Shown: positions 34,264 through 64,000 of the stretch, piece after piece | Layout: every line of letters starts with the position of its first letter | Position numbering within the stretch: position 1 is the stretch's first letter | DNA from: Polytrichum commune | Taxonomy: Eukaryota; Streptophyta; Polytrichopsida; Polytrichales; Polytrichaceae | DNA length: 64,000 nt | Reading direction: 5' to 3' | NCBI GenBank assembly: GCA_950295325.1 | Contig: OX485809.1 | Span: forward strand, 40,085,081 to 40,149,080 | Position numbers and translations under genes: made by a program | Notes under the pieces: model-generated | Seen by the model: the letters and a program-made list of their open reading frames with translations, nothing else | Databases searched by the model: none | What the model was told of the DNA's origin: nothing

Positions 34264-36678
34264 AATAACAAGAAAATAGAAGCAATTTATATAAATGAAG
34301 AAATTTCACAATGGGTCTGGGACAATTTCAAAGACATGAAAGACCATGACCTAAGATCCATTCGACTATTGATATGTGCGGGATTGACAACATTACCGGA
34401 AGCATTCGAGAATTGGATTTCTTTGACAACATTGGTTTTGGATAAATGCTCAAGCATGACAACATTGCCAGAGGGATTGGGGAACTTGACTTCTTTGACA
34501 ACATTGGATTTGTGTGATTGTTGGAGCTTAATGACGTTACCAGAGGAATTGGGGAACTTGACTTCTTTGACAACATTGGATTTGTCTTGGTGTGAGAACT
34601 TGACGACATTACCGGAGGGATTGGCGAACTTGACTTCTTTGACAACATTGGATTTGTCTGGGTGTAGGATGTTGACGACATTACCGGAGGGATTGGGGAA
34701 CTTGATTTCTTTGACAACATTGAATTTGTCTTCGTGTGAGAGCTTGACGACATTACCAGAGGGATTGGGGAACTTGACTTCTTTGACAACATTGGATTTG
34801 TCTAGGTTTAGGATGTTGACGACATTACCGGAGGGATTGGGGAACTTGATTTCTTTGACAACATTGAATTTGTCTTCGTGTGAGAGCTTGACGACATTAC
34901 GGGAGGGATTGGGGAACTTGACTTCTTTGACAACATTGGATTTGTCTTGTTGTTCGAGCTTGGCGACAATACTGGAGGGATTGGGGAACTTGACTTCTTT
35001 GACAACATTGAATTTGTCTTTGTGTGAGAGGTTGACGACATTACCGGAGGGATTGGGGAACTTGACTTCTTTGAAAACATTGGATTTGTCTGAATGTAGG
35101 AGCTTGACGACATTACCGGAGGGATTGGGGAACTTGACTTCTCTGATAACATTGAATTTGGCTTCTTGTTTGAGCTTGACGACATTACCGGAGGGATTGG
35201 GGAACTTGACTTCTCTGATAACATTGAATTTGACTTCTTGTTTGAGCTTGACGACATTACCGGAGGGATTGGGGAACTTGAATTCTTTGACAACATTGAA
35301 TTTATTTTGGTGTGAGAGCTTAACGACATTACCGGAGGCATTGGGGAACTTGACTTCTTTGACAACATTGGATTTGTCTTGGTGTTTGAGCTTGACGACA
35401 TTACCAGAGGGATTGGGGAACTTGACTTCTTTGACAACATTGAATTTGTCTTGGTGTGAGAGCTTAATGACATTATCGGATGCATTGGGGAACTTGGTTT
35501 CTTTGAAAACATTGAATTTGTCTGCGTGTTGGAGCTTGGTGACATTACCAGAGGCATTGTGCAACTTGACTTCTTTGACAACATTGAATTTGTCTGCGTG
35601 TTGGAGCTTGGTGGCATTATCAGAGGCATTGTCCAACTTGACTTCTTTGACAACATTAAATTTGTCTGGATGTAAGAGCTTGACGACATTACCCGAGGGA
35701 TTGGGGAACTTGACTTCTTTGACAACATTGAATTTGTCTGAGTGTAAGAATTTGACGACATTACCTGAGGGATTGGGGAACTTGGTTTCTTTGACAACAT
35801 TGATTTTGTCTTATTGTTCGAGCTTGACGACATTACCAGAGGCATTGGGCAACTTGCCTTCTTTGACAACATCGGATTTGTCTTGGTGTGAGAGCTTGAC
35901 GACATTACCGGAGAGATTGGGGAACTTGACTTCTTTGACAACATTGGATTTGCATCGTTGTTGGAGGTTGACGACATTACCAGAGGGATTGGGGAGCTTG
36001 ACTTCTTTGACAACATTGAATTTGTCTTTTTGTTCAAGGTTGACGACATTACCGGAGGCTTTGGGGAACTTGACTTCTTTGACAATATTGGATTTGTTTG
36101 GGTTTAGGATGTTGACAACATTACCGGAGGCATTGGGGAACTTGATTTCTTTGACAACATTGGCTTTGTATGGGTGTGAGAGGTTGACGACATTACCGGA
36201 GGGATTGGGGAACTTGACTTCTTTGACAACATTGGATTTGTCTAAATGTAAGAGCTTGACGACATTACCGGAGGGATTGGGGAACTTGACTTCTCTGATA
36301 ACATTGAATTTGACTTCTTGTTTGAGCTTGACGACATTACCGGAGGGATTGGGGAACTTGACTTCTTTGACAACATTGAATTTGTCTAAATGTAAGAGCT
36401 TGACGACATTACCGGAGGGATTGGGGAACTTGACTTCTCTGATAACATTGAATTTGACTTCTTGTTTGAGCTTGATGACATTACCGGAGGAATTGGGGAA
36501 CTTAACTTCTTTGACAACATTGAATTTGTTTTGGTGTGAGAGCTTAACAACATTACCGGAGGCATTGGGGAACTTGAGTTCTTTGACAACATTGGCTTTG
36601 TATGGGTGTAGGAGCTTGACGACATTACCGGAGGGATTAGGGAACTTGATTTCTTTCACAACATTGGAATTGTCTTAG
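34264..36678 (+). CDS. PNL immune receptor, exon 3: LRR region, truncated by TAG
   Basis: A linker of about 40 residues leads into 32 leucine-rich repeats of exactly 24 residues, with the core TLPEGLGNLTSLTTL followed by LS.C.SL. This is the sensor region. At the DNA level the 72-bp units are nearly identical, and the pair with SKCKSL then TSCLSL is itself duplicated (units 26-27 and 28-29), a sign of recent unequal exchange. The frame stops at TAG 36676-36678, where sister units have TGG in the same place (LSWCESL), so the stop looks like a single G-to-A change. Six further units follow in the same frame. Joined to exons 1 and 2 this would be about 1,720 residues. Confidence 0.88.
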   Translation, partial: NNKKIEAIYINEEISQWVWDNFKDMKDHDLRSIRLLICAGLTTLPEAFENWISLTTLVLDKCSSMTTLPEGLGNLTSLTTLDLCDCWSLMTLPEELGNLTSLTTLDLSWCENLTTLPEGLANLTSLTTLDLSGCRMLTTLPEGLGNLISLTTLNLSSCESLTTLPEGLGNLTSLTTLDLSRFRMLTTLPEGLGNLISLTTLNLSSCESLTTLREGLGNLTSLTTLDLSCCSSLATILEGLGNLTSLTTLNLSLCERLTTLPEGLGNLTSLKTLDLSECRSLTTLPEGLGNLTSLITLNLASCLSLTTLPEGLGNLTSLITLNLTSCLSLTTLPEGLGNLNSLTTLNLFWCESLTTLPEALGNLTSLTTLDLSWCLSLTTLPEGLGNLTSLTTLNLSWCESLMTLSDALGNLVSLKTLNLSACWSLVTLPEALCNLTSLTTLNLSACWSLVALSEALSNLTSLTTLNLSGCKSLTTLPEGLGNLTSLTTLNLSECKNLTTLPEGLGNLVSLTTLILSYCSSLTTLPEALGNLPSLTTSDLSWCESLTTLPERLGNLTSLTTLDLHRCWRLTTLPEGLGSLTSLTTLNLSFCSRLTTLPEALGNLTSLTILDLFGFRMLTTLPEALGNLISLTTLALYGCERLTTLPEGLGNLTSLTTLDLSKCKSLTTLPEGLGNLTSLITLNLTSCLSLTTLPEGLGNLTSLTTLNLSKCKSLTTLPEGLGNLTSLITLNLTSCLSLMTLPEELGNLTSLTTLNLFWCESLTTLPEALGNLSSLTTLALYGCRSLTTLPEGLGNLISFTTLELS

Positions 36679-37110
36679 TGTGAAAGCTTGAGGACATTAC
36701 CGGAGGCATTTGGGAACTTGACTTCTCTGACAACATTGGTTTTGTTTGAGTTTGAGAGCTTGACGACATTACCGGAGGGATTGGGGAACTTGATTTTTTT
36801 TACAACATTGAATTTGTCTGCATGTTGGAACTTGGTGACATTACCAGAGGGATTGGGGAACTTGACTTCTTTGACAACATTGAATTTGTCTTATTGTAAG
36901 AGCTTGACGACATTACAGGAGGGATTGGGGAACTTGACTTTTTTTACAACATTGAATTTGTTTGCATGTTGGAGCTTGGTGACATTACCAGAGGGATTGG
37001 GGAACTTGACTTCTTTGACAGCATTGAATTTGTCTTATTATAAGAGCTTGACGACATTATGGGAGGGATTGGGGAACTTGGTTTCTTTGATAACATTGAG
37101 ATTGTCTAAT
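34387..37110 (+). repeat. 72-bp tandem array (38 LRR units)
   Basis: Units are colinear with no indels: the first begins at 34387 and the 32nd at 36619, exactly 31 x 72 bp apart. A typical unit contains GACATTACCGGAGGGATTGG and CTTCTTTGACAACATTG. Codon-third positions are almost as conserved as the others, implying DNA-level homogenisation. Confidence 0.95.
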
Positions 37111-48911: not shown

Positions 48912-49268
48912 ATGGTTGAGAGTAGTCGAGGTTCATTCGAGTGGTTTAGGGACCATGTGGGTCTTCCTGGTGTGGGATTGAATCCTAGGAAGGGTGATTT
49001 TGAGGGGCGAGATGGCTTGATTAGAGAGTGTGATAGTTTGTGGGGAGTCAGGGTTGGTCACAATGGATACCATTTCATGGACAAGGGTCCCAAGGAACTC
49101 CAGGAGAGGATTCTGAGTTTGTGGCCTGTGGTTTACCAGAGAGAATGGCCTAAAAACACTATATTCGTTAAATTGAGACTTTTTGGGCATTTTGAGACAT
49201 TCATAGAAATAAGAACAAGGATAAATGGAACACATATTGGTGAAAGTTGTAAGATGCGAACACTTTGA
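48912..49268 (+). CDS. Unrecognised frame, probable truncated exon
   Basis: 118 codons beginning with ATG six bases after a splice-acceptor-like TGCAG. The first about 85 residues (W, G, D, R rich, for example SFEWFRDHVGLPGVGLN and a YHFMDKGPKELQERIL stretch) look like real protein, but I cannot place the family. The last 30 residues run towards the 98-bp tandem array, as if the array or its host repeat interrupted the gene. Confidence 0.35.
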   Translation: MVESSRGSFEWFRDHVGLPGVGLNPRKGDFEGRDGLIRECDSLWGVRVGHNGYHFMDKGPKELQERILSLWPVVYQREWPKNTIFVKLRLFGHFETFIEIRTRINGTHIGESCKMRTL

Positions 49269-49284
49269 AGCGGGTGTTTAGACC

Positions 49285-49690
49285 AAGAACCCCATTAATA
49301 ACTCATATTTGTGATGGTTTAGGGTGGGCAATCGAAACCTTAGACCAAATTGAAGGGGACATCTTAAAACATTCATATTAATGCACACAAAATATGAGAG
49401 CTTGTATGAATATGGTTTAGGTAGGGCAATCCAAACCATAGATCTTATTGAAGGGAAAATCTTAAAACATTCATATTAATGCACACAAAATATGAGAGCT
49501 TGTATGAATATGGTTTAGGTGGGGCAATCCAAACCATAGATCTTATTGAAGGGAAAATCTTAAAACATTCATATTAATGCACACAAAATATAAGAGCTTG
49601 TATGAATATGGTTTAGGTAGGGCACTCCAAACCATAGATCTTATTGAAGGGGAAATCTTAAAACATTCATATTAATGCACACAATAAGGC
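49285..49690 (+). repeat. 98-bp tandem array
   Basis: GCACACAAAATATGAGAGC recurs at 49383, 49481 and 49579, exactly 98 bp apart, with a partial copy at 49677 and a diverged one before. Units also share GGTTTAGGT.GGGCAATCC and CTTAAAACATTCATATTAAT. Confidence 0.93.
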
Positions 49691-49865
49691 ACTCCAAACC
49701 TTAGACCATATGGAAGGGGAAATCATGTCTAACTTATATTATTGCAAAAAAAAACATACAAAGTGTGGCATGTAAAATGCATATCATGCTAACACCACAC
49801 ATCCATTGGATAGTGCGACCCAAAATGTTCTTGCCTATGGCCCAAAACCCTACGCCTACTATGGC

Positions 49866-50183
49866 CTATCTAGCCTCGGATACTACCTCTTTTTCTTTTG
49901 CTTCATTTTCTTTTGTTTTTTTTTCTTTTGCCTCTTTTTCTTTTGCTGCAGCTTCTTTTGCTCGCATTGCTTCAACATTCCTGAAAATCTCCGCCCCGCG
50001 ACTATAGCCATTCTTGGGGTGACCGCCATCCATAACACATTTTGGAGTCCGTCGGCCGCCCGAAATATACGTCGAAGAATTCGAATACGATGAAGTGGAT
50101 TGTCTCGCATTTCTGGTCATGGCGTACATACGCTTGAACTCGATGGACGCACTAGACCGCATAGGTTTACGGGTGGGAGCAAC
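49866..50183 (-). CDS. Last exon of the GC-rich minus-strand locus: charged tail
   Basis: Opens after GCGTTGCAG| at 50184 and ends with TAG at 49866. It encodes VAPTRKPMRSSASIEFKR, a Ser/Tyr/Arg stretch and a C-terminal helix made almost wholly of Lys, Glu and Ala. This suits a nuclear or nucleic-acid-associated protein, but no domain is recognised. Phase 0 matches the exon at 50313-50666. Confidence 0.55.
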   Translation of the reverse strand, partial: VAPTRKPMRSSASIEFKRMYAMTRNARQSTSSYSNSSTYISGGRRTPKCVMDGGHPKNGYSRGAEIFRNVEAMRAKEAAAKEKEAKEKKTKENEAKEKEVVSEAR

Positions 50184-50312
50184 CTGCAACGCGTCAATGC
50201 AAGACCACATGTGTTAGTTTAGGGAGGAAGACCCAAACGTGTCACACGTTCATTTTTTAAGTGCAAAATGATTGTAATGCGCGGTTAACCAGGTTTGGGG
50301 GGGGGGGTTCAC

Positions 50313-50666
50313 CTTGTCACCGGGGGCGTTCCCGTCGGAGTCGGCGAGGAGGGGCAATGCGTCCCGCAAAGGAATAGGAAGGGTTCCACTCTTCGTTGGC
50401 CGAGCGTCCATCCGCAGCCGCCGTTGAGGTGTACTACTGCCGCCGGGCGGAGAGGGGGATGTCCGGACGCATTTGCGATTTATGCCCTTGAGCGGCGACG
50501 GGGACGGAGAATGCCGGAAGATTTGCTTGGGTGGGGGGCTATCGACGACGCCGGCGTCAAGAGGCTCCTTGGAGTAGTCAATGGTCGACGCGGCGTCGTA
50601 GACGGTCTCGTAGAAGAAGCTCCCCAAGTCCGACTCGCTGACGATGTCAATCGAGGGCTCCAAATG
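50313..50666 (-). CDS. Exon of the GC-rich minus-strand locus: Ser/Pro-rich
   Basis: 118 codons between GCGCCAG| and GACAAG|GTGAAC, phase 0 at both ends. The product is acidic at first (SIDIVSESDLGSFFYETVYD), then a Ser/Pro/Arg-rich disordered segment. A stop ends the preceding FCP1-like frame at 50850, so this exon either belongs to an alternative transcript or to a separate gene whose first exon I cannot see. Confidence 0.5.
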
Positions 50667-50763
50667 CTGGCGCAAAAAAGGAAACGAAACAAAACCCAAG
50701 GGAGGAGGGTTTGATAGAGCGCGTGAAAATCAAGATACATATGAAGCATATACTACACAAAAT

Positions 50764-50838
50764 GAAAGGGCGCGCGCGCGCGCCCACACACACACACACA
50801 CACATACATACATACATACATACATACACATACAAACA
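50764..50838. repeat. Compound microsatellite
   Basis: Alternating GC, then CA, then CATA units in direct succession. It lies in the gap between the FCP1-like and Ser/Pro-rich exons and could destabilise the locus. Confidence 0.95.
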
Positions 50839-50849
50839 CACGTAGTGTC

Positions 50850-51662
50850 TCAAATGAGCTTGTTAAATTTCGCGTGAGATAACAACTCTCTGTACAAATG
50901 GTCTCGTGGATCCAAGTATCTCTCGCCTATCGGATTGTTCCTAACAAAATTGTTTACGGGCAGTCCGCTTCCGCAGAGCGCCTGGAGGTATTTACCAAGG
51001 TCTAACAAAAATCGGTCCCGGACCTTCTCGACCGTCCAGGTAGGGCAAACTATGAGGTTGGCCGTCGGGTTCAACATGTTCTTTGCGGCGCTGTCGTCCA
51101 CCATGAGCGTGTTCTCGCGGGTGGGATGGACGTCGTAGGGGACGCCTATCAAGGACGGTCGCTGGTCCCAAAAAATGGGCTTCAAGACCTTGAGGTATTG
51201 GGGGGAAGCGGGGTTGTTTGGTTTTTTGACGACTTTGCCGTCCGGTGTGTACAATATTCTACAGGCTTCCTGTGCTAGGACCATGCACGGGGGCTCGATG
51301 CCCTTGAAGATGAACTCCACGACGGCATTGGTGTTCTCGGCCGTCATGGAGCTCCAAACGACCACCCACCATCGTTGTTGGGCCAGCTGGAGGAAGGTCC
51401 GAAGCCACGGGCGGAGGTGAACTAGCTTGCTCTTTATGAACGTGGGCGGGCCGTCGTAATTCGCGTCCTCGGGCTTGCAAAAGGGCACCGTGGGGGTCCT
51501 CGGGCAATGAACGCATTGGACGAGGACCCCGTTCAGGTCTAACACCAGGAATCGTTTCTTCGGCCGCGGGGGCGGGGCGGGTAAAATCGGGGGCGCCGCC
51601 GCGCTACCCTCTCTGCTCCTTGGAGAAGAGCGTCGGGGAGCCGCTACGCTATGCTCCGAGCC
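50850..51662 (-). CDS. FCP1/NIF-type phosphatase-like exon
   Basis: Begins after ATCCGCAG| in phase 0 with a Ser/Arg/Pro-rich lead, then KKRFLVLDLNGVLVQC. Other family marks are WWVVVWSSM (motif II region), LKVLKPIFWDQR and TLMVDDSAAKNMLNP (the DDS motif). This is the HAD-superfamily FCP1/SCP fold. The usual DLDGTL is DLNGVL: the nucleophile Asp remains, but the acid/base Asp is Asn and Thr is Val, as in several plant FCP1-like proteins, so CTD-phosphatase activity is doubtful. Ends with TGA at 50850. It is in phase with the proline-rich exon upstream, suggesting capture of a host domain into the element's gene. Confidence 0.75.
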   Translation of the reverse strand, partial: GSEHSVAAPRRSSPRSREGSAAAPPILPAPPPRPKKRFLVLDLNGVLVQCVHCPRTPTVPFCKPEDANYDGPPTFIKSKLVHLRPWLRTFLQLAQQRWWVVVWSSMTAENTNAVVEFIFKGIEPPCMVLAQEACRILYTPDGKVVKKPNNPASPQYLKVLKPIFWDQRPSLIGVPYDVHPTRENTLMVDDSAAKNMLNPTANLIVCPTWTVEKVRDRFLLDLGKYLQALCGSGLPVNNFVRNNPIGERYLDPRDHLYRELLSHAKFNKLI

Positions 51663-52175
51663 CTGCGGATACGATCGAGAGAAAACGGTGGGCGACTTAT
51701 GTCATGCTATGTCCAAACGAAGCATTAAAGAAACGAGTGTTCTCGGTGCAAACACAAAACCATTTGATTCATTTTGGAGGGGGTGCAACAAGGGACACAA
51801 GAGAGGCAAGAGCATACAACATACATTCAAACACAGGATACGAGTATAGAGGAGTAAAAAATGGCGATTATATTGTATACAATGCTCTATGTACATCTTG
51901 ATTGGGGGGAGCCGCGTTGAACGATGCGTTCAAACTAGCCTACTTCTACATCTAGCAAAAATTGAAGAGACGGGCCGCCGTGATGAAGACTTCATCGCAA
52001 GCCGGGGGGTATGTGGACGAACGAATGGTCGGGGGGAAGTGGCGAAGGGCGCGAGTGCCGGGGGGGCGACGTGTCCGTGAGTTTAGGGTAGTTAGGGGAC
52101 ACGACCAAGGCAAGAAGACAAAGACCCATGGAGTTTGGGTCGACCAACCCAAACTGAGTGGGGTCAGTGCATTAC
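51663..52175 (-). other. Intron 3 of the GC-rich locus
   Basis: 513 bp between GGCGAG|GTAATG and ATCCGCAG|. It carries one palindrome copy at 52133-52154 (right arm CAACCCAAAC). GC-rich parts could hide a small exon. Confidence 0.55.
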
Positions 52176-53648
52176 CTCGCCTTGGTCGTGCCTTGACGAC
52201 GTGGATGCCGTCATCACGTGCGCTGCCCCACCTTTGTCACCGCCGCCTCCGACGACGACGTCAGCCGCAACCTGCTCCTGCAAAGGCTGACTGTTAGGCC
52301 TTTGTCCCAACCCAACCTCCGCATGCGCATCATGCATTGGTTCATCGACTGGGTTAGGAGTAGAGGTATCACCAGGCCCTTGCGGGCCTTCAACGTTTAA
52401 CATGGGCTCGTCCACCGGGGTCTGGTCGGGGATGGGGTTTGGGTCGGCCGACCCAAACCCTGCTGCTTGGCGAGCGTCGCTCTGGGACGCTGCAACGTCG
52501 GCACTGTTTGGGTCGGACGACCCAAACATGTGGGGGTCGTCCCGCTGGTGGTGTGGGGGCAAGAGGATGGGAGGCCAGAGCGGCGGGGGCGCCAACGGGC
52601 TGGAAGCTCCTGGGACGCGCCAAAGGTTGGGGTCGTCCACCTGCTGGACGGGCGCGTAAGGGCGGGCGTGCGGCTGCAGCAAATGCGCGAAGCTGAAGGA
52701 CTGCTGCGGCACCGGCCGCGGGCGGATATCCTGTGGAGGGAAGCCTGCGGGCAAGTGAGGGAATGAACTCGGGGGAGCCATCACCAATCCCTGCGCCAGC
52801 ATGCCCTGGATCACTTGCGTGATCAGGTCCGCTTGGGACGGAGGTGGGGCCATCGCCCTTTGCCGCTCCTGCTCCAACAGGAGAGCCCTCAACTCCGCGA
52901 CTTCGTTGCGGACCGAGGGCTCCTCGGCGGCGGCCTTTTGCAATCGGACGCGTTGCTCCTCGTCCCGGAGCATCCTCGCGTTGGCCTCCTCCACGGTGAG
53001 GACCTCGGGTTTCACCCTCACCATCCTGGCGAACGCTGTGGGGGAGGCAGGATCCGACCTCAGCCTCTTCGCGAGCTCCATGTCGTCCTCGTCCTCGGAG
53101 CTTATGGCGATCGTCTCCTCCACCGCATAATCGCTGTATAATTTTTTCCCCTTTAGCATTCGCCGCTCCCTGAAGGTGGCCGTCGCGTCCCTCAAATACA
53201 TGTCCTTCGCGTCGGCCACCGTGAGGACGGGCACTAGCTTGCTCTGCGGCGTGGCAGCTCACATGGCCTTCTTCCGCTGAGGGGCCTCGGATTCTTGAGT
53301 GAATCCTGTTGCCCCTTCCTCGACCTCCCCCTCCACTTTCTCTGCTTCCTCCTCATCCTCCTCTTCCTCCCCCTCCTCCGCAACCTCGCCACCTGCTCCC
53401 ATAGAGGGATTGCCCGGATGCAACCCGATGAGCGGCTCTGGCAATTGAACGGGGGCTCGCATGGTGAATTCACCCGGGTTGATTCGCCTCGCCATATCCA
53501 AAGGATTCTCGCCCCCCTCGACGATCTCTTCGACGTAGGATCCGGGTATCCAGTCGAGGATGTCCATTCTCTTGGCCAGCGCCTTCTGGGTCCTGTAGAA
53601 TTGAACATCGGCATCCTCTACATAGGAGTAGATGTTCAACCCAGACAT
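52176..53648 (-). CDS. Exon 3 of the GC-rich locus: acidic and proline-rich, with internal TGA
   Basis: Starts after TTGTGCAG| with ATGTCTGGG (MSGLNIYSYVEDADVQFYR). An acidic low-complexity run (GEEEEDEEEAEKVEGEVEEG) follows, then TGA at 53259. The same frame continues (AATPQSKLVPVLTVADAKDMYL) through a helical Arg/Glu segment and a long Pro/Gln/Asp-rich tail to GAG|GTAATG. Two palindrome copies lie inside this frame and are read as FGSADPN (52437-52458) and FGSSDPN (52506-52527). No known domain. The TGA (possibly CGA to TGA) splits an otherwise clean 491-codon frame, so the locus may be inactive or two proteins may be made. Confidence 0.6.
52437..52527. repeat. Two palindrome copies inside coding sequence
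   Basis: GTTTGGGTCG-GC-CGACCCAAAC at 52437 and GTTTGGGTCG-GA-CGACCCAAAC at 52506. Their 69-bp spacing is a multiple of three, and both read FGS.DPN in the exon's frame. Confidence 0.95.
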
Positions 53649-53858
53649 CTGCACAATCAGAATCAATACTATTAGTATCACCAAATGAACAAATAATGGA
53701 AAGTGACATCCAAAACAAAATAAGAATAGTTAGTTTGGGTCGCTCGACCCAAACTATGGGCATACCTAGTTTGGGTCGAGCGACCCAAACCATGCATGCC
53801 CTAGTTTGGGTCGCTCGACCCAAACCGTCCATATAGTTCCTTCAGGTTATTTGCTTAC
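53649..53858. repeat. Intron 2 with three palindrome copies
   Basis: Copies at 53733, 53769 and 53804 (spacing 36 and 35 bp), with spacers CT, AG and CT. The intron has donor ATG|GTAAGC and acceptor GTGCAG| on the minus strand. Confidence 0.95.
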
Positions 53859-55190
53859 CATGGCTGCGAAAACCGGTTTGGAGCCCCCGAAGACGTTGAA
53901 GATGCAGTCCCCTCTCTTCGTGAGGGTCCTCATCATCCGCAGGTAGAACTCCATGCGCAGCTCATCCGCGGGGTAGTTGGCGTACTTCGCCTCGTCGTAC
54001 AAGCTCCTGCTGGTGCCCAACCTTTCTTGGACTTGGAAGAGCTTCTCCATCCTGGCTATGGGATGGTTTGGCACCTTAAGCAGCTCAGCTTTGTACACAA
54101 AGTACAAGCACAGCACGTTGACGATCTTCGTCTTCTTGTCTTTCAGCGTGCTGTACGCCCCCTCCGCCGGTGCAGCAACGTAGTGAGATTTTGAGACAGC
54201 GTACTCTGGCTGCAATTTCCGCACGATCTCGTACACCTGCTCTGCCCTCCTGTCCTCGACAATCCACAGCCAGACGTCGACCTCCCTGAATTTGGGGCTG
54301 CCGTAATCCACAAACTTCGTGAAGAACGGCTCGTAGAACGGGGTGCTCATTGTCCCCTCGAATGAGGCTCCAGGGATGTTCCTGAAGTCTATCATTCCGA
54401 AGGGGAAGCGGTCCCCGGCTTTTGTCCTGATAGCCTTCCTGGCATCAGAGCCCGGCCATCCTTGGATCTTGAGAGGCTCGAGGGTGACCAAGTTGAAGTA
54501 GGCGTCGCCCTCGAAGCTGACGATCTTCTTCTCATTTATAAAGTTGGAGAAGGCACGCGCGGAGTGTTCGGGAAGCGCTCGGTTCCTCCCCCCCTTCACA
54601 AGCTTGGACTTCAGGAAGTCGTCTCCCGCCTCCCTGATGAGTGCCGCCATTGACGCACTGGTAAACTTGTAGTCGGCTTTGAATGCCCTCCAGTGCGCCT
54701 CGTCGACCTCTCCATCCACTATGAGCTTCCTTTCCGGCACCAGCTTGTGCAGCTCCTGGACGATGGTCGTCTTCTTTTTCCTATTCTCCGTCCATTCCTT
54801 CATGGTGTAGCATGAAGGGACGAAGATTTTGGGCTTGATGAAGACGATCTTCGGGTGAACCCAACATCTCTTCGCCGTCGGCTGCACGTGAAGGATGTGG
54901 GACGCCGCCTTTCCCATCTCTGTCTCCGAGAGACCTTGAAGAGCCCTGAAGAACTCCCTCACCAGAGGCTTCATCTGCTTGAAGCGCGCAGTCTGACTGA
55001 AGAGCATGCCGGTGTCGGGATCCATGAGGTCCCCCGTCTCGTGTTTCTCGAAAACACTCTTCCATCTCCCCCACACGGAGTCAGACGCTGTGATCAAATA
55101 AATTTCTCCTCTTAGCTCGTTGTACTTCTTCTGCTTGTGGGAAGCGTTGTCAATCGAGGAGAATTTGTTGATCATCTGGTATTTGAAGTC
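53859..55190 (-). CDS. Exon 2 of the GC-rich locus: large unrecognised domain
   Basis: 444 codons in phase 0 between CATGTGCAG| and GCCATG|GTAAGC. It begins DFKYQMINKFSSIDNA. The composition is that of a folded enzyme or nucleic-acid protein (many Lys, Phe, Trp, Arg), with segments such as CWVHPKIVFIKPKIFVPSCY, VDVWLWIVEDRRAEQVY and FYLRMMRTLTKRGDCIFNVF. I recognise no family. It is the largest uninterrupted frame of the locus and has no internal stop, so selection on it may be recent. Confidence 0.7.
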
Positions 55191-55438
55191 CTGCACATGA
55201 AGTAAATAACACACGTGAGAAAACTGCGAATGCAAGAGTTTGGGTCGATCGATCCAAACTATAAACCTCACGAGAAAAAGTAAGCAATGTTACAGTTTGG
55301 ATCGATCGACCCAAACTATAAACACGACGAGAAAAAGTAAACAATGTTATAGTTTGGGTCGATCGACCCAAACTATAAACCTGAATCAAAAAGGTAAACA
55401 ATTCAAGAGTTTGGGTCGATCGACCCAAACATACTCAC
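55191..55438. repeat. Intron 1 with a 57-bp palindrome array
   Basis: Four copies at 55238, 55295, 55352 and 55409, exactly 57 bp apart, each followed by ACTATAAAC.... and a CGAGAAAAAGTAA-like spacer. All have AT as the 2-bp spacer. Donor GAG|GTGAGT and acceptor CATGTGCAG| on the minus strand. Confidence 0.95.
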
Positions 55439-56764
55439 CTCCCATTTTGGGTTCTTGTCTTTAGCATTCTCCCTTTCCTTGGGAGGCCTGCCGTAAAACT
55501 CCCACACCTCCCTCGAGGCCATGATGTTCCGAATCCAGGATGCCTGGTACGCCCTCTTCTTGTTTCCCATGTTGAAGAAGCGTGAGATGTCGGTTAGTAC
55601 GGTCTCATTGTCAAACCAAACCACCAATGCCTTCCACACCTTTAGCTTCTCCTTTTGGTTGTTGGGGTCGTCCCACTCGGTCATCAGCTGAATTTTTTTA
55701 GACGCCTCCACACTGTGTTGGCCGTCAATCAGCCAGAAGTCGCCTTTGCATATTGTCGGCCACATTTCAAGCGTCGGCATTCTCTTCAGCCCTTGCGGCA
55801 TGACAACAATTGTCTGCCTATCGTCTTTGAATTGCCCTCCCAAGATCTGAGCGACCATCCAGTCGACGTAGGCGTCCTCCTTGGCTTGGACACACTTCTC
55901 AGGTGGCGCAAGGTGGCACTGTGCAATGTTCACCTCGAACTTGAAGTCCCTGCCCATGAAGAAGCAATGCAGGCACTTCATCTCGAAGTTATCATTGATT
56001 TTCTGTATCTCGCCTGCATCCACCTCTTGGCCAGGTTTCGGCATCCGCAGCTCCGGGGAAACTGGCTCGGTGGTCATGACGGAGGACTCTCTCGCCCTCT
56101 TCGACGGGGTCGTCTGCCGGTTTCCGGACGGTGTGGGCGTCTCGCTGTCAGCCGGCGTTCCTGTAGTGCTAGGCCGTCTGGAGTCTGCAGGGACCGGACA
56201 CGGTATCCTCACAGTTTGGGGTCTGGACGACCCTGCGCCTTCTTCCGCCGTTGCCTTACGCCTCACAGGCTTCTGCGTTTTGGCTTTACTTTGCAGCGCC
56301 TTGTTGAGGACCGTGATGGCCTGTTTCAATTTTGTAAACCTACTTGCAACCTTCGTGTTGGTTACATTGCCATCTATGAAAATTGTCTCCGGTTTAATTG
56401 TTTCAGGCTCCACGCATGACTCCTTGGCGTATATAGTGTCGAATGACTCGGAGAACTGGTGCATGAACATGTGGGCGTTCTGCACGGCGGAGTTCTCGAG
56501 AATTACGTCCACGTAATCCCCGAGGGCTTGGACGGACGCAACCTCCCATCCTGTCAACGTTGTCCAAGTGTGGTTCTCGTGGGTCCCTACTTTTACCACG
56601 AATAGGAGCTTGAACTGGGAGCCCTTTACAACCTGAACTGACCACGCAAGGACAAGCCCATCCTTGGGCACGTATGAGTCGTCCTGGGGGGTTTCATACT
56701 TCTGCCATATTACGTCTGGCGCGAGCATAAAGAACCTTTCTCCAGGTCTCTTCTTGGGGGCCAT
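55439..56764 (-). CDS. Exon 1 of the GC-rich locus: ParB-like DGQH-motif protein
   Basis: ATG at 56764 directly follows a splice acceptor (ACTTACAG|), so a leader intron precedes it. 442 codons, phase 0 end. An N-terminal part of about 165 residues is unrecognised. A Ser/Thr/Pro-rich, basic linker (about 170-235) follows. The C-terminal part has TIVVMPQGLKRMP, then about 20 residues later WLIDGQHSVEASKKI (about 341-355). That matches the ParB/sulfiredoxin-like DG.HR.EA.K motif of nucleotide-dependent DNA-binding clamps and DGQHR proteins, with Ser where Arg is usual. The similarity is short; a profile search is needed. Such a protein could bind the surrounding palindromes (inference). Confidence 0.65.
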
Positions 56765-56791
56765 CTGTAAGTCCAGAAATTAAAACTATTA

Positions 56792-57338
56792 GTTTCGGTC
56801 GATCGACCCAAAGTAGTCGACAATGCATTTAACATTTGGTGGAAATGGAACAAATGTATTTTATTGACCAGCCCGAATTCAAGGTTTGGGTCGATCGACC
56901 GAAACCTTGAACACTTGGTGGCTCGTATTCTTTAAATGTGGAGGCTAGAGTGTTTGGGTCGAGCGACCCAAACATTTCATTAATTTTAAAGCTGATTTCT
57001 AGTGTTTCAGTAGATTTGAAATTGGGGTTTGGGTCGATCGACCCAAACATGAGGCTCTGTGGTTTGGGTCACTCGACCCAAACATTTTATTAATTCTTAA
57101 TATGGTTTCAAGGGTTTTTTTATATTTTGAATTGGGGTTTGGGTCGAACGACCCAAACATTGCAGCCTCATGTTTGGGTCGCTCGACCCAAACATGAGCC
57201 TTTGGGGTTTGGGTCGAGCGACCCAAACATGAGGCTGCAATGTTTGGGTCGATCGACCCAAACATTTAATCAATTTTCAAGCTGATTTTAAATGTTTCGT
57301 TACATTTTAAATTGGGGTTTGGGTCGCCTCCCGAAACT
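56792..57338. repeat. Palindrome array in the 5' leader intron
   Basis: Ten copies: 56792 and 57317 degenerate; 56884, 56952, 57027, 57062, 57137, 57172, 57207 and 57242 good. Spacing is 35 or 75 bp over the last eight copies. Spacers vary (AT, AG, CT, AA) while both 10-bp arms are kept. It lies between a donor-like CAAG|GTATAT at about 57447 and the acceptor at 56765, both on the minus strand. Confidence 0.95.
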
Positions 57339-57449
57339 ACTTAGTTTCCAGAGGCATGTTTAATGTTTAAACATCATATACAATGCATTGTATATGAAAC
57401 ATGATCGTAAAGGAAGTGAAGCAAATTGTGTAGAGTGAAATGATATACC

Positions 57450-57555
57450 TTGTGTTTGAAACTCTTGTAAGCTGCTCTTACAAGCTGATTCTTATAACCA
57501 GAATCCATAAACTCTTGTAAGCTGCTCTTACAAGCTGATTCTTAGATCCAGAATC
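57450..57555. repeat. 50-bp tandem duplication
   Basis: ACTCTTGTAAGCTGCTCTTA at 57461 and 57511. TCTTACAAGCTGATTCTTA is also shared, giving a hairpin-rich unit. Confidence 0.9.
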
Positions 57556-57839
57556 CAGAAACTCTGTGATATCACTAAAAATCAACACTTAGAAACACCT
57601 AAAAATCACTATGAATCTCACAAGCACTCTGAAACCCTCTCACAAACACCCTGATTCTTGCAAGCCTTCTGATCACTACTAATAACAACCTGAAATCACT
57701 CCACAACAACAACAAAACTCTGATGTCACTCACTGCATCCACTCTACAATAAGAAATGAATGACACTCAACTAAAGCGATCCGGACTCACTCAATGCGTG
57801 CACGCTGAACCAGGAAGAGAGAATAAGCCTATAATCCTA

Positions 57840-58330
57840 GAAGAGGACTCGAAGGACTAGAGAGGAGAAGAAGAATGCAAAGGAAGAAGTGAAGAGAAAG
57901 ACAAAGAGGAAAGCGGCGCTTCGCGGGAAGCGGCGCGTCCAAGCAATACCCAATGAGCGCAAGAAGCTATGCGAAAAGACAAACTCACAATCGCTTGGCG
58001 CGTCGCTATGGAAAGCGGCGGCGCTTCGCGCGGAGGGAGAGGAAAGCGAGAAAGAGAGAAAGAGAGAAAGAGAAGGGGAGAGCCGAAGGGGTTCCCCTTC
58101 AGACAATCCTGGCCATGCGATTTCTCGGGCCCATCAACGGCCCAGAAGCCTCGCGGGCCAAAACCCTGCCAGGTGTCCAAACCTCCTTGGTGGAGGTGGT
58201 TGCCCGCGCGGCTTCTGGTGTTGACACATGGCACCCTATGGACATTGCCTTCGGCATTGTCCTTGCCTCTAGGGGCGGGGCATAGGAGGGTCGGCGCCTC
58301 TCTTGGCCGCCCGGCCCCGGCATTCTAACC
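57840..58330 (-). promoter_or_regulatory. GC-rich, pyrimidine-rich probable promoter or leader of the minus-strand locus
   Basis: An abrupt GC-rich island with GCGGCGCTTCGCG repeats and, on the minus strand, CTTTCTCTCTTTCTC runs typical of plant transcript starts. It lies just upstream of the leader intron of the minus-strand locus. Several frames are open here because of composition only, and none looks like protein. Confidence 0.35.
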
Positions 58331-60680
58331 CGATATTCATTACCGGCAATTCAAAAAGCTACATAGACTAAGATGTTGCACAATATTTACACCATCGCCA
58401 ACTCTGATTTTAATGGTGTTGAATTGAATGATCGCCCATTGGAATTGATAATTGATAACATCGTAGCCATTATTTGTTTTGGTATTTCAATAATGTAGTC
58501 GTATGGAATCATATGAGAGTGTTACAAAATCTAAGAGGAGTAATTCATAATTATATTGCAATCTTCAAAGGCAATTACACGGTGCAATAATATAAATATG
58601 GTAACCGTTCACATGGTTAAGGGTATTGGGTTATGTATTCTAATTTCTATGATGGTTGTTGGTAGAGGACAAAGCTCTAGACTACAATGAATACCCTAAC
58701 AAGTAGCATTACAGTGAACATTAACATATGTACTTAGAAGCTCAAATTTGAAGTACATGGGAGAAACAAAATGATAACAAATGTATCTACTTCAACCCCA
58801 TGGACTTCACATATCATATGAAGCCATTTAAACATTCAGTTTTTTGTTCGATGATGCCTAAACCCTAAACCCTAAACACCACAAACCATAAATGAATGGC
58901 ACACACGTCAAATGACAGGGCTTTGGTGCTTGTAGTTCTCAATACAAATGTATATTGTCATCATAACATCCTAATTCACGAAAGAATGAACTCACAAATG
59001 TCATTTGTGATTTATGGTTCCATTCATGACTTCCACATACGTAGGTTAATGTCACACTTGCATGCTTGAGGATGGAGCAATGTTGTGTGCACACATTACA
59101 AACAACATATGTTCTTTTGATTAGCGCAAATTGAAAGTTGGCCAAAATATTCAACTTTGTCATGGCATCAATTCCTTGTTTTCAAAATATAAGTCCTCAT
59201 GTGAGGGTCTAAATAATTGCATTAACTATTATATTTAGTGACTTTTAGTATATGAGGTTTTATAATATTGGCACCTCTTTTGTCAATATATTGTTTGAAT
59301 TATACCACAATGTTTGACTCCAAGTAGAATAAAACCCCTTAGATATAACCTTACATATTGTCATAGGGATATTGGTAATTAGTGTATGCATTCATATTTA
59401 GTGTATCAAACTCTATATATCCAATTTAGTTTTATCTAGTCAATGAAAGTGTTGTAGTGTCACTACAATGAATATGATAATTACACTCAATATGATAGTT
59501 AGTGTTTGATACACTTAATAAGAACGTTTAAAATAGATGTTGTTTGTATATGGGGGCATCAGTGAACCACTACTAAATTTTGGTGTTTAGGGTTTAGGGT
59601 TTAGGGTTTAGGGTTTAGGGGATAGGGTTATAACATATTAATCTATCCAATGTCAATGTATAACATTGTCTTACTCGTGAGAAGAGTCTTATAGGAAGGT
59701 TATAGTGAAGACGATATTGTGTTTATTTGAGACGTTTAAACGCGATATATTGATCGGTCTTGTGTTTATTCAAATAACATGAAATATTGTGGATGTTAAT
59801 AGGGGCTAGGGGTCCAACTTTGGATGTTTCGCTCACTTTAGGGAATCACATATTAGTCGCTAATAAACCATCGTCCATGATGTATTTAATATATGGAATG
59901 TGATGTAAAAGTAAATCGGAGAAGCACAACATCATGTTGTTATTCATTGTTCTCTCCACGTGTATTAGATAATGGAGGAAGATATAACAGATATTGTTTG
60001 CATAATATGAAGAAGAGTCTAATCGGAAGGTCATAGTAAATACAATCTTGATCATGTTAATATGTTATATGGGACGTTTAAACATGATATCCTAATTGGT
60101 TTTGTATTTAGTCAATGCGTATTTCATGTTGTGGATGTTATAAGGGTTTAGTGTCCAATCTTCGATGTTTTGCTCTCACACATTAGTAAACTTGAAGTGA
60201 ACTTGAGGATGGATTCAAGTAACATTAAAATATTGAACTAAAAAGGGACATTGGTAGTTAGTATCCCCTTAACAACGTCCACATACGTTCGTCATTGCCA
60301 CTCTTGCATGCGAGATAATAGAGCAAGGTTCTAGGGTTTAGGGTTTAGGGGAGACAAATAAATATTTCTATTCATCATGACAATGGCCTCAAGCCTTGGA
60401 AACTCTCTCATAATTGCAGCCTCCAAATGGCCCAAACCCCACCTAAATAGGTTTACACTTGAAAGCATTGAATGGAGTTGTGTTTGGGTCTACATATTGG
60501 TTAAAATATACCTTGATGATACTTGAAAAAATTAATGTGGCCGCCACCCTTCCTCCCAACGGCGTATGTCATATCCACACAAGACAAAAAAAAAAGATTA
60601 AATATCATAGACTAAGTCATATGACGGCTGGGGTATGAGAGGGGCATTGATAGATGCGCATTTTCTACTATAAACAGAAA
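58331..60680. other. AT-rich spacer with telomere-like tracts and old duplications
   Basis: TTTAGGG-type tracts at 58857-58878, 59586-59620 (five units) and 60329-60350. A foldback at about 59397-59518 pairs TAGTGTATCAAAC with GTTTGATACACT around a GTAGTGTCACTAC core. Two diverged direct copies about 330 bp apart share GAAGAGTCT...GGAAGGT.ATAGT, GACGTTTAAAC and TTGTGGATGTTA (near 59680 and 60010). No gene. Confidence 0.6.
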
Positions 60681-60772
60681 ACGGGGAATTATGTCAGGAG
60701 GTTTGAAAAAACCGCTGCAGGAGAACAAGGCGGGAAAGGCATCCAATGAGGAAGTCGGAGAAACGGAGGTGG

Positions 60773-60783
60773 ATAGTATAAAG
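60773..60783 (+). promoter_or_regulatory. Candidate TATA box of the transposase-like gene
   Basis: AGTATAAAGGG, followed after about 30 bp by pyrimidine-rich TCCTTTTTTGCTCTTCTCCC, a plausible start region. The coding start is 1.4 kb downstream behind a probable leader intron. Confidence 0.3.
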
Positions 60784-61048
60784 GGACGCACCCCCCAAAA
60801 CTCTGTCCTTTTTTGCTCTTCTCCCACTCTTGAATTCGTAGGGAGAACTCTTAGTCGGAGCTATACTTCAAGGTTCGTGCATGCTGCCGTTCATTACCAC
60901 TTATCCACAACATGCAAGTTCATGAGCACCTATCCACAGCATGGAAGCCCACCGGGAACTTTGCAATGAGCTCAAAATCATATGGGATTTCGGATTATCC
61001 GCCGCATTATCCGCCGGATTTTGAGGGTTTTAGTGTGACTCTTATCAG

Positions 61049-61988
61049 GTTTGGGTCGGTCGACCCAAACCCCTCCGCTAGTGTGGGTGGGTTTCAGCCT
61101 GACCCTTACACAGGTTTGGGTCGGTCGACCGAAACCCCTCCACTCGTGTGGGAGGGTTTCAACCTGACCCTTACACAGGTTTGGGTCGGTCGACCGAAAT
61201 CCCTCCACTCGTGTGGGAGGGTTTCAGCCTGACCCTTAACCAGGTTTGGGTCGGTCGACCGAAACCCATCCACTAGTGTGGGTGGGTTTAACCCTAAACC
61301 CTAAACCAGGTTTGGGTCGGTCGACCGAAATCCCTCCACTCGTGTGGGAGGGTTTCAGCCTGACCCTTAACCAGGTTTGGGTCGGTCGACCGAAACCCAT
61401 CCACTACTGTGGGTGGGTTTAACCCTAAACCCTAAACCAGGTTTGGGTCGGTCGACCGAAACCCATCCACTAGTGTGGGTGGGTTTAACCCTAAACCCTA
61501 AACTAGGTTTGGGTCGGTCGACCGAAACCCCTCCACTAGTGTGGGAGGGTTTCAGCCTGACCCTTACCAGGTTTGGGTCGGTCGACCGAAACCCCTCCAC
61601 TAGTGTGGGAGGGTTTCAGCCTGACCCTTACCAGGTTTGGGTCGGTCGACCGAAACCCCTCCACTAGTGTGGGCGGGTCTCAGCCTGACCCTTACCAGGT
61701 TTGGGTCGGTCGACCCAAACCCCTCCACTAGTGTGGGAGGGTTTCAACCTGACCCTTACCATGTTTGGGTCGGTCGACCCAAACCCCTCCACGAGTGTGG
61801 GTGGGTTCAGCCTGACCGTGATCAGGTTTGGGTCGGTCGACCCAAACCCCTCGACCAGTGTGGGCGGGCTTGACCAAAACCCCTCGACCCCTTGACATAC
61901 AATGTTTGGGTCGACCGACCCAAACCCCAACCCCATCTTGGCCGGCTGGAGGTTGACCATGAGAAGGTTTGGGTCGGTCGACCCAAAC
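61049..61988. repeat. 15-copy palindrome array upstream of the transposase-like gene
   Basis: Copies at 61049, 61114, 61179, 61244, 61310, 61375, 61441, 61507, 61571, 61635, 61699, 61763, 61826, 61904 and 61967. Spacing is 63-66 bp with one 78. All have spacer GT except 61904 (AC). Nine consecutive copies carry CGACCGAA in the right arm, a derived variant spread by local duplication. Three intervening segments contain AACCCTAAACCCTAAAC telomere-like runs in place of the usual CAGCCTGACCCTTA. Confidence 0.97.
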
Positions 61989-62176
61989 CCCTCCCAAAAT
62001 GTTTTTTGGAACTTGCGCAAAGTATTGGGAGTTCACATTGTAGTTGTGTTGCAAATGTCTTTATCCTCGGTGTTCCCATTTATCATGATGTCTTGCATTT
62101 TTTGATATTTGATTCTTTTGAACCCTTACATGGTGTGCATGTTTGTTGAGGTTTCATGTGCATGTGTGTAGGCGAA

Positions 62177-64000
62177 ATGGAGGGAGCTGGTGGAAGAGGG
62201 GATGCCTTCTCTGAAGACATGGGCAACTCCCATTCTTCGTCTGGGGATGACCTAGACATTGTCAGGGAGGATAGTTTTGGTGACAGTGCAGATGAAGGTC
62301 ATTTGGGGAGTCCTTCGCCATCTACCCCTTCTTGCCCCACTGTGGAATGTGCTGGGCTTTCACGAGCTTCATGGGTGAATTTGGATGTGGTACTTGTTAA
62401 TGACAGTGGAATTGCTGTGGCGGAGGGTATTTGTCGTAACACACATCCACAAGATTGCATTGATGAAAACCCCCTTGGCACCGAGGACGTTGGAGTTGTT
62501 ATATTGGAATCACTCGTACATTCCGAAGTGAATCCAACTCATAGGTTCTCGTTGCGAAGGTGGCCGTTGAGGAATGTGACAATTGATGGGGTTAATTTGC
62601 ATGAGCATGAGCGACGACACATCCAAATCCAACAGGAGCTCCAAGCAAACATTCGGCCACGTAAAGGCCTACGGAAGTACGATACATTGGCACGTCCTAC
62701 TCCGTCTGCAAATGAGTGTAAACGTCAAAGGTTGCTCTGTGAGAAATCTATTAGAGAAGTTGTCACAAAGGATTGTTGTGTACATCGTTGTTGCCAATTG
62801 TTCCCAAGGAATAAATTGAAGGCCATCCGCGAGGAAATGTGGCTTGGAGATTTCCGTCTAAGATCCACCAAAAAGCTTGATGTCCATAGGGCGATACATG
62901 TGAACGGAGCGGGTCGAAAGGTCATCACCCTTGAGAGCATAGACGTGTGTTGTACGGCATGGTACACCATTCACGGTGTGTCGAAAGCGGAATTTTATAG
63001 ACAAGCCGCGTATGCCAAGGAAGGACGCCGGTCCCGTCACCATGGGAATACGGGCTTAAAGAAACCAAGGGAAGCAACGAGACAAGCAACAGCCACTCTG
63101 GCAACCATCATTGTCCCCCTTGCCGATGCAATGCTGCACAAAACACGCACACTCTCAACCGGTGAAAAGGTTGTGGAGAAGGTTCTTCCTACAGGCACGA
63201 AATGGAAAGACATATTGTTGGACGTAAACGCAGTTGGCGAGAAGGCTGGGTTGGACCCTATTTCGTTGTCGAAACTAAGTGCAATAAAAAAATCTCACTT
63301 TAGCGAATACATCACAAAAAGACGAGGCGACAAATTTGCCCGTTGTTCCAAATGCGAGAAGTTGAAACGCCTTCAAGATGCACACACGATGGGGACAGAG
63401 TCCTATGCCGCACATCAAATGAACTATTTCAAGCATGTGAACATGCAAAAGGCACACCGTAATGATTACTACACAAATAGAGCTTTGTCCATCTCTAGGC
63501 CTTTGGAGGTCCTTACAATCATCCATGACAAAATGGACCATGCCAAAACAGCCTCACCATGTTTTGCAAATCGAATCAAAGCCACGGACGGCCTTTTTAA
63601 GCTTCATGTATCGGTTACAGGTGATTTCGATAACAATTGCATTGCATTACCTAAACACAAATTTGTGCTTTTAGGTTTGTACTTGGGGCCATAGATGTAC
63701 ACCATGTGAATTTTTTGGTGTTATAGTTGAATATTAAACCATTGGGTTGGCTTTGCAGGGATGATTGCACATGGACACGGTGATGTCAAGTATGCTCATT
63801 ATGCTCTTGATTTGTATCCGGCGGATTCAAACCACACAATAGGGTCATTTGCAAAGCTTTTACGTGATTTGGAGAAACCGCCGTCCTATTCATCAAGATT
63901 GTTATTTGAAAACTCGGGATCAACACCTCTATATGAAGCGGTCTTGGATGGAAGAGATGTATGCGTGCACTCCTTGCCGGAGCCACCAAGTGAAGATGTG
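62177..64000 (+). CDS. DDE-type transposase-like protein (runs off the window)
   Basis: ATG 62177 follows a TGTGTAG| acceptor; an ATG at 62156 is also in frame. Exon to 63620, then GT-AG intron 63621-63758 (GTTACAG|GTGATT and TTTGCAG|), phase 1, rejoining at HVSVTG with MIAHGHGDVKYAHY. Order: acidic N-part; a CCVHRCCQLF cysteine cluster (about 200); VCCTAWYTIHGVSKAEFYR (about 260); CSKCEKLKRL finger-like pair (about 400); IHDKMDHAKTASP (about 450); then HGHGD and LYPADSNHTIGSFAKLLRDLE. This pattern fits large transposase-like proteins (DUF7869-like, first catalytic Asp in D.MD..K...P) seen in invertebrates and early plants. The family name is from memory and not verified. No internal stop, so it may be active. 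Confidence 0.6.

Follow-up and report, generated by a model that had tools for sequence, protein, structure and literature searches.

What is a short palindrome with nearly fixed arms and a changeable centre doing, more than thirty times over, in some 10 kb of a moss genome? The stretch of Polytrichum commune DNA analysed here, hereafter the window, covers 64,000 nucleotides (assembly GCA_950295325.1, contig OX485809.1, positions 40,085,081 to 40,149,080 of the forward strand). The repeated unit, GTTTGGGTCG-NN-CGACCCAAAC, is 22 bp long and consists of two 10-bp arms around a 2-bp spacer. All copies in the window sit inside one mobile element, a DNA transposon of the family that we call F1. We favour, with a probability of about 0.6, the reading that the palindromes are docking sites of a dimeric, transposon-dedicated protein that would act on the element's own genes.

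Palindromes of a DNA transposon, their arms and their spacers

At up to two arm mismatches the window contains 34 palindrome sites, 19 of them exact, all within 52133-61988 and none elsewhere in the 64 kb. This agrees with an earlier note on the same DNA, which had reported about 35 copies at 52.1-62.0 kb, none in the other 54 kb, and eight spacers (AT, GT, CT, AG, GC, GA, AA, and AC), all of which are present in the window. One hundred dinucleotide shuffles of the window yielded no site. Across the 408-Mb genome, 9231 exact F1-palindrome sites were counted, compared with none for a reversed control pattern. F1 or F2 sequence accounts for 98 of the first 100 in the genomic list, and two (C1:475338 and 475370) were left unassigned. 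The confinement to two neighbouring loci that the earlier note had described corresponds to two divergent genes of one transposon, and it does not hold for the genome, where the palindrome is common.

The left border of homology of the F1 element was placed against two other copies (B and D), and the right border against three (B, C, and D). All three F1 copies with both ends are flanked by 4-bp target duplications (TAAA in the window, ACTT in B, and ATAA in D). The inverted ends are 28 bp long and begin with AACACTATATTCG, and the end repeat has 1030 plus 1031 genomic matches at up to three mismatches. The transposase carries a DUF7869 domain (Pfam PF25273, E = 8.8e-38, L001:3-1322), on which nothing was found in the literature, and has at least 84 genomic matches at 92-100% identity. 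Its gene lies on the plus strand, and the minus strand carries, in divergent orientation, an accessory gene (gene 1) together with a frame for a NIF-type phosphatase. CACTA elements have subterminal repeats bound by transposase or TNPA and create 3-bp target duplications. F1 resembles them as a plant-type DNA transposon with clustered short repeats and with CACTA in its end, but differs in its DUF7869 transposase, in window-copy sites that lie far from the ends, and in its target duplications, which are 4 bp in all three copies with both ends.

Exons were drawn by eye from reading frames and GT-AG borders, and not from transcripts. By these models, 32 of the 34 window sites fall outside reading frames, and the other two lie within the 3′ open frame of gene 1, where they are read as FGSxDPN. 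Three sites lie within or directly downstream of the final exon region of gene 1, three and four in its two internal introns, nine in its inferred 5′ intron, and 15 in an array immediately upstream of the transposase gene; the closest sites are at least 2.9 kb from the left end and at least 3.7 kb from the right end. The majority belong to tandem arrays, and site number grows through tandem duplication of longer units. Palindrome-like segments in 98-bp repeats near the left end (49314..49684) were left out of the count; these repeats could possibly be subterminal transposase sites.

Site positions are common to four F1 copies (A, the window copy, B, C, and D) that are ~75-90% identical, which allowed the arms to be compared with their surroundings at three sites outside arrays, in the 3′ exon region. 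Between A and D, which are ~77% identical in gene 1, the arms of these three sites differ at 1 of 60 positions and the spacers at 4 of 6, while 260 of 1086 other positions differ (24%), including 71 of 200 within 40 bp of the sites (arms versus rest, p = 4e-6; arms versus spacer, p = 1e-4). The pairs A-C, B-C, and B-D concur, and the close pairs A-B and C-D are uninformative (p = 0.08 and 0.7). Sites outside arrays keep their arms as spacers and flanks change; the earlier note had proposed that selection or copying acts on the arms. Among 176 sites from copies A-D and L005-L008 (up to two mismatches), the arm positions hold 1.5-2.0 bits, the nearest flank 0.49, and further flanks no more than 0.28 bits; as the sites were picked by arm match, only the flanks are a free test. 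Directly outside the palindrome, C is found at 4 of 176 sites on one side and G at none of 176 on the other. The boundary of the conserved unit is sharp at 22 bp.

The spacer varies, as the earlier note had it, but it is not free. Pyrimidine-purine (YR) spacers occur in 38 of the 9231 exact sites; were all 16 spacers equally common, their share would be one quarter. All 38 are CA/TG, with no TA or CG. Eight of the 38 lie within the range over which exact F1 ends were listed; seven of these lie between paired F1 ends and six at 3.9-4.2 kb from one end, and this clustered placement points to probably few originating events. Transitions are unable to convert the other spacer classes into YR, and the transversions seen among those classes (GA/GT, GC/CC) include none that enters YR. 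Our reading of the avoidance is that a bound protein probably senses the spacer through indirect readout. Adjoining sites carry unlike spacers. One intron holds both spacer orientations, which fits recognition at the DNA level.

Palindromes of other transposon families

Five families carry four palindromes of one geometry, with letters private to each group, and only F1 and F2 have one in common. F2 is a 12.3-kb element with the F1 palindrome in 32-bp-period arrays, located 5′ of an accessory exon and between two transposase-like frames. Its ends are unlike those of F1, and no similarity to the F1 transposase was found in it. Both F2 copies have 10-bp target duplications (AGTTGGCATG and CTGCCTACAC) and inverted ends, the combination expected of Mutator-like elements (9-11 bp duplications), while the SWIM match is weak (E = 0.076) and no MULE domain match was obtained; F2 is probably a Mutator-like transposon, different from F1. 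One F2 element with a 10-bp duplication is located between F1 ends (C1:63977224-64006895; L017 and L018) and is probably a nested insertion.

F3 and F4 were reached through relatives of the F2 accessory protein. The F3 palindrome, GGKTTCGG-GA-CCGAAMCC, has 552 genomic sites with any spacer (reversed control, 1), and the F4 palindrome, AATCCCACGG-AT-CCGTGGGATT, has 85 (reversed control, 0). Around the F3 accessory exon (L013 and L014), 85-bp repeat units also contain a second palindrome-like motif, TGAAGCC-NN-GGCTTCA. F5 was reached by a genome search for DUF7869, in which 150 of 1491 candidates were scored and one F5 copy was among the matches (C1:71779125, E = 6.0e-38). It is a 22-kb element with its own ends, an apparent 4-bp duplication (TACA, by eye), a transposase 34-49% identical to that of F1, and a NIF frame 32% identical. 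Its palindrome, CCCACGGGTG-NN-CACCCGTGGG, has 644 genomic sites (reversed control, 0), of which two have YR spacers; the listed F5 spacers are AA/TT and AT only, and the F4 spacers among the sites listed are AT plus one GT.

Ten copies (four of F1, one of F2, two each of F3 and F4, and one of F5), cross-tabulated at up to three mismatches (two for F3), contained no site of another group's palindrome. One locus (L019), which has one site each of the F4 and F5 palindromes, is an F5 end joined to an F4 start.

A proposed dedicated reader of the palindromes and its rivals

We prefer a dedicated dimeric protein because the sites have one geometry, private letters, constrained arms, a spacer rule, and a placement in introns and 5′ regions. 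Among the possibilities raised in the earlier note, a dimeric protein binding site is the best fit to the fixed dyad arms, the constraint outside arrays, and the family-specific letters. A dimer of a sequence-specific protein with two-fold symmetry would read the two 10-bp arms; the spacer would not be read base by base, with the flexible YR step excluded. Bound at the clusters in introns and 5′ regions, the protein would control the accessory and transposase genes. It would most likely shield them from host silencing, in the way that VANC does for VANDAL elements, although plain transcriptional self-regulation would fit as well. A family's own site sequence would let the protein act on its own kind and spare the host, and F2, with F1's site, may use the same factor.

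In Arabidopsis, VANC motifs occur in introns of VANC and VANB and upstream of VANA and have spread by tandem duplication; motifs differ between VANDAL families, and an unrelated transposon can have the same motif (PMC5735166). The moss elements share several features with this system, namely motif clusters in non-coding parts, tandem duplication, family-specific motifs, and an unrelated transposon with the same motif, here F1 and F2 (PMC5735166; PMC10398659). The moss sites differ in being palindromes of 18-22 bp with a 2-bp spacer, the word "palindrome" being absent from PMC5735166, and F1 and F5 are DUF7869 transposons. The scanned accessory frames of F1-F5 gave no informative Pfam match, VANC-like proteins included (whether Pfam holds a VANC model was not checked). 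VirB, a ParB relative, is described as lifting silencing from palindromic sites (PMC10653881). As with ParB-parS and VirB, the sites are palindromic and lie in the same element as the gene for the presumed binder, and a DGQHS / GNHR motif can be made out by eye; the differences are the lack of a statistical ParB match, the eukaryote-type transposons, and the many sites in arrays. F2 and F4 also recall the ParB-methyltransferase fusions of phages and bacteria (PMC12704722; contig C12) in the order ParB-like then methyltransferase-like, but their motifs look degenerate and the matches are weak (E 0.011-0.027). In the titles and abstract openings listed on transposon anti-silencing, ParB, and moss DNA transposons, no such palindromes are described.

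The likeliest encoder of a palindrome-binding factor would be accessory gene 1, in which short motifs resemble the F2 accessory protein by eye. The accessory exons of F2, F3, and F4, and that of a further locus (L021), are homologous (34-42% identity to that of F2; 35 invariant columns, including GNHR), although the palindromes of F2-F4 differ, and the downstream exons of F2 and F3 are homologous as well (E 2e-7 to 2e-9). In F2 and F4 a methyltransferase-like exon lies after the ParB-like one. A profile of this later exon ranks the adenine DNA methyltransferases 5hek/5hfj at the top of PDB with weak scores (E = 0.022 and 0.027), and matches the corresponding motif of a bacterial ParB-methylase fusion with E = 0.011 and a probability of only 3.8%; its NCBIfam methyltransferase matches are weak (E 0.035-0.2) and Pfam gave none. 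Structure prediction of gene 1 exon pieces, run without an alignment, reached a mean pLDDT of only 30.5 and 33.5. A ParB-like and methyltransferase-like accessory protein is, on this showing, a weakly supported candidate for the reader of the palindromes. The link to ParB-like and transposase-like genes proposed in the earlier note survives in that the genes and sites share one element, while the ParB assignment does not have statistical backing.

Several results weigh against a dedicated accessory reader. ParB membership of the accessory proteins was not confirmed by Pfam, by a PF02195 scan of the genome, which matched small contigs C10, C12, and C23 only, by a PDB profile search, or by profile comparison; searches with the profile or members of seven accessory exons found no ParB, and viral contigs scanned with the profile contained no relative. 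Gene 1 has stops or frame breaks in all four F1 copies read: the window copy has a single in-frame stop in the 3′ frame, B has that frame shifted, and in C and D, where the 3′ frame is uninterrupted, stops occur in earlier exons. BLASTP found no significant similarity between F1 gene 1 and the F2 accessory exons, despite their common palindrome. With related proteins beside different palindromes in F2, F3, and F4, and proteins without detected similarity beside the same palindrome in F1 and F2, the site therefore does not simply follow the accessory protein. The F5 copy showed no ParB-like gene. Locus L021, whose accessory exon is 40% identical, lacks all four palindromes, and within 8 kb it showed no other palindrome family built around a 2-bp spacer. 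Finally, TA occurs in 2 of 50 listed F3 sites, so the YR rule is not absolute in that family.

The same locus L021 (1736-2835) has four copies of CAATGAAGAAGCTTCATTG, spaced ~360 bp apart, beside the accessory exon; they may be a further private palindrome with different spacing. Genes for ParB and for ParB-DNA-methylase fusions, of bacterial or phage type, are present on contigs C10, C12, and C23 (L023-L025), which are probably contaminants; by eye, the C10 frame has an apparent long insert within the methylase.

Binding by the transposase itself, at subterminal-type repeats used in transposition, is unlikely. The F1 and F5 transposases have diverged along with their palindromes, and F5 has imperfect sites ~0.2 kb from one end (three mismatches) and ~0.6 kb from the other (two mismatches), as this would predict, but the window copy keeps its sites kilobases away from either end, and the palindrome is shared by F1 (DUF7869, 4-bp duplication) and the unrelated-looking F2 (Mutator-like, 10-bp duplication). 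A host transcription factor exploited by transposons would account for one site in two different transposons; we rate it slightly lower again, given that nearly all of the first-listed genomic sites fall in F1 or F2 and that other families carry other palindromes of the same geometry. Improbable, too, is a role as an RNA hairpin in splicing, double-stranded RNA, or small RNA. All three inferred gene 1 introns contain the palindrome and F3 does show symmetric change in both arms, yet single-arm changes at 55238, 55295, and 57062 have no match in the other arm, and both spacer orientations occur within one intron.

Lower still, we place sites without function that are alike through tandem duplication and gene conversion. 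The prevalence of tandem arrays in the window copy suits this account, but it is already disfavoured by the three non-array sites, where arms persist amid changing flanks and spacers, and by identical arms in two different transposons. Just as improbable is the miniature palindrome spreading and inserting by itself that the earlier note had considered. Such a unit would account for a palindrome that lies within an open frame, recurs in two different transposons, and reaches a high copy number; against it, copies A-D have sites at the same positions, increase runs through duplication of longer units, other families carry other letters, and no empty site was seen, since the three 3′ exon sites are present in all four F1 copies. 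A 2-bp spacer between inverted arms recalls serine recombinase cores. The crossover core with a 2-bp overlap that this suggests (the earlier note had named a recombinase core) is the least probable account, as no recombinase match was found among the scanned proteins, neighbouring sites have unlike spacers, and YR avoidance would not be expected.

A bolder form of the dedicated-protein reading, which we regard as doubtful, is that several transposon lineages of this genome each evolved a private palindromic "address". Its reader would be a dimeric accessory protein descended from ParB/methyltransferase ancestors, which would lift silencing at the introns and promoters of its own element. Such a protein would parallel VirB in a eukaryote, and anti-silencing of the VANC type would have arisen a second time from an unrelated source. 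To our knowledge, VANDAL is the one lineage in which sequence-specific anti-silencing by transposons is understood in detail. The moss genome has five element families with four palindromes that share a geometry, natural site variants in the thousands, and a spacer rule. If the dedicated-protein reading is right, one could test directly how the factor recognises elements of its own family and how changes in site and protein are linked.

Genes and other features of the element

The NIF/FCP1-type phosphatase gene accompanies two diverged DUF7869 families, F1 and F5 (L028:2590-3411 in the latter; Pfam E = 4.6e-11). In the titles and abstract openings listed, we saw no account of a NIF-type phosphatase carried by such transposons. 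In copy B (C1:610757-628840; L002-L004), the transposase gene contains 1.5 kb of inserted sequence, for which further matches lie in L005-L007 and in the flank of the window element.

Table 1. Features of the F1 element in the window (positions count from the first nucleotide of the window).
Feature	Position	Strand	Remarks
F1 DNA transposon	49155..64000 (window part)		16.6 kb; ends at 65776, 1776 bases beyond the window end, in L001
Target duplication TAAA	49151..49154		4 bp; repeated after the right end
Left terminal inverted repeat AACACTATATTCGTTAAATTGAGACTTT	49155..49182	+	28 bp
98-bp tandem repeats near left end	49314..49684		remote palindrome-like segment, 4-5 mismatches
NIF-type (FCP1-like) phosphatase reading frame	50853..51701	-	Pfam PF03031, E = 1.6e-14
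Palindrome 1	52133..52154		1 mismatch; 3′ of gene 1 open frame
Gene 1, 3′ exon region	52164..53648	-	one in-frame stop in window copy
Palindromes 2-3	52437..52527		exact; within open frame, read as FGSxDPN
Gene 1, intron	53649..53858	-	GT-AG by eye; 3 palindromes at 53733, 53769, 53804
Gene 1, exon 2	53859..55190	-	no family match; methyltransferase-like end by eye only
Gene 1, intron	55191..55438	-	GT-AG by eye; 4 palindromes at 55238-55430
Gene 1, exon 1	55439..56764	-	contains LIDGQHSVEASKKI; ParB/Srx-like by eye only
Gene 1, inferred 5′ intron	56765..57448	-	9 palindromes at 56792-57263
Array of 15 palindromes	61049..61988		period ~64 bp; just 5′ of transposase gene
Transposase gene, first long exon	62177..63691	+	second exon with DUF7869 starts near window end, continues in L001

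The intergenic region of the F1 element also contains telomere-like GTTTAGG repeats (59585-59629). Elsewhere in the window, 72-bp tandem repeats in ~38 copies (34384-37107) are, by eye, of the leucine-rich-repeat type.

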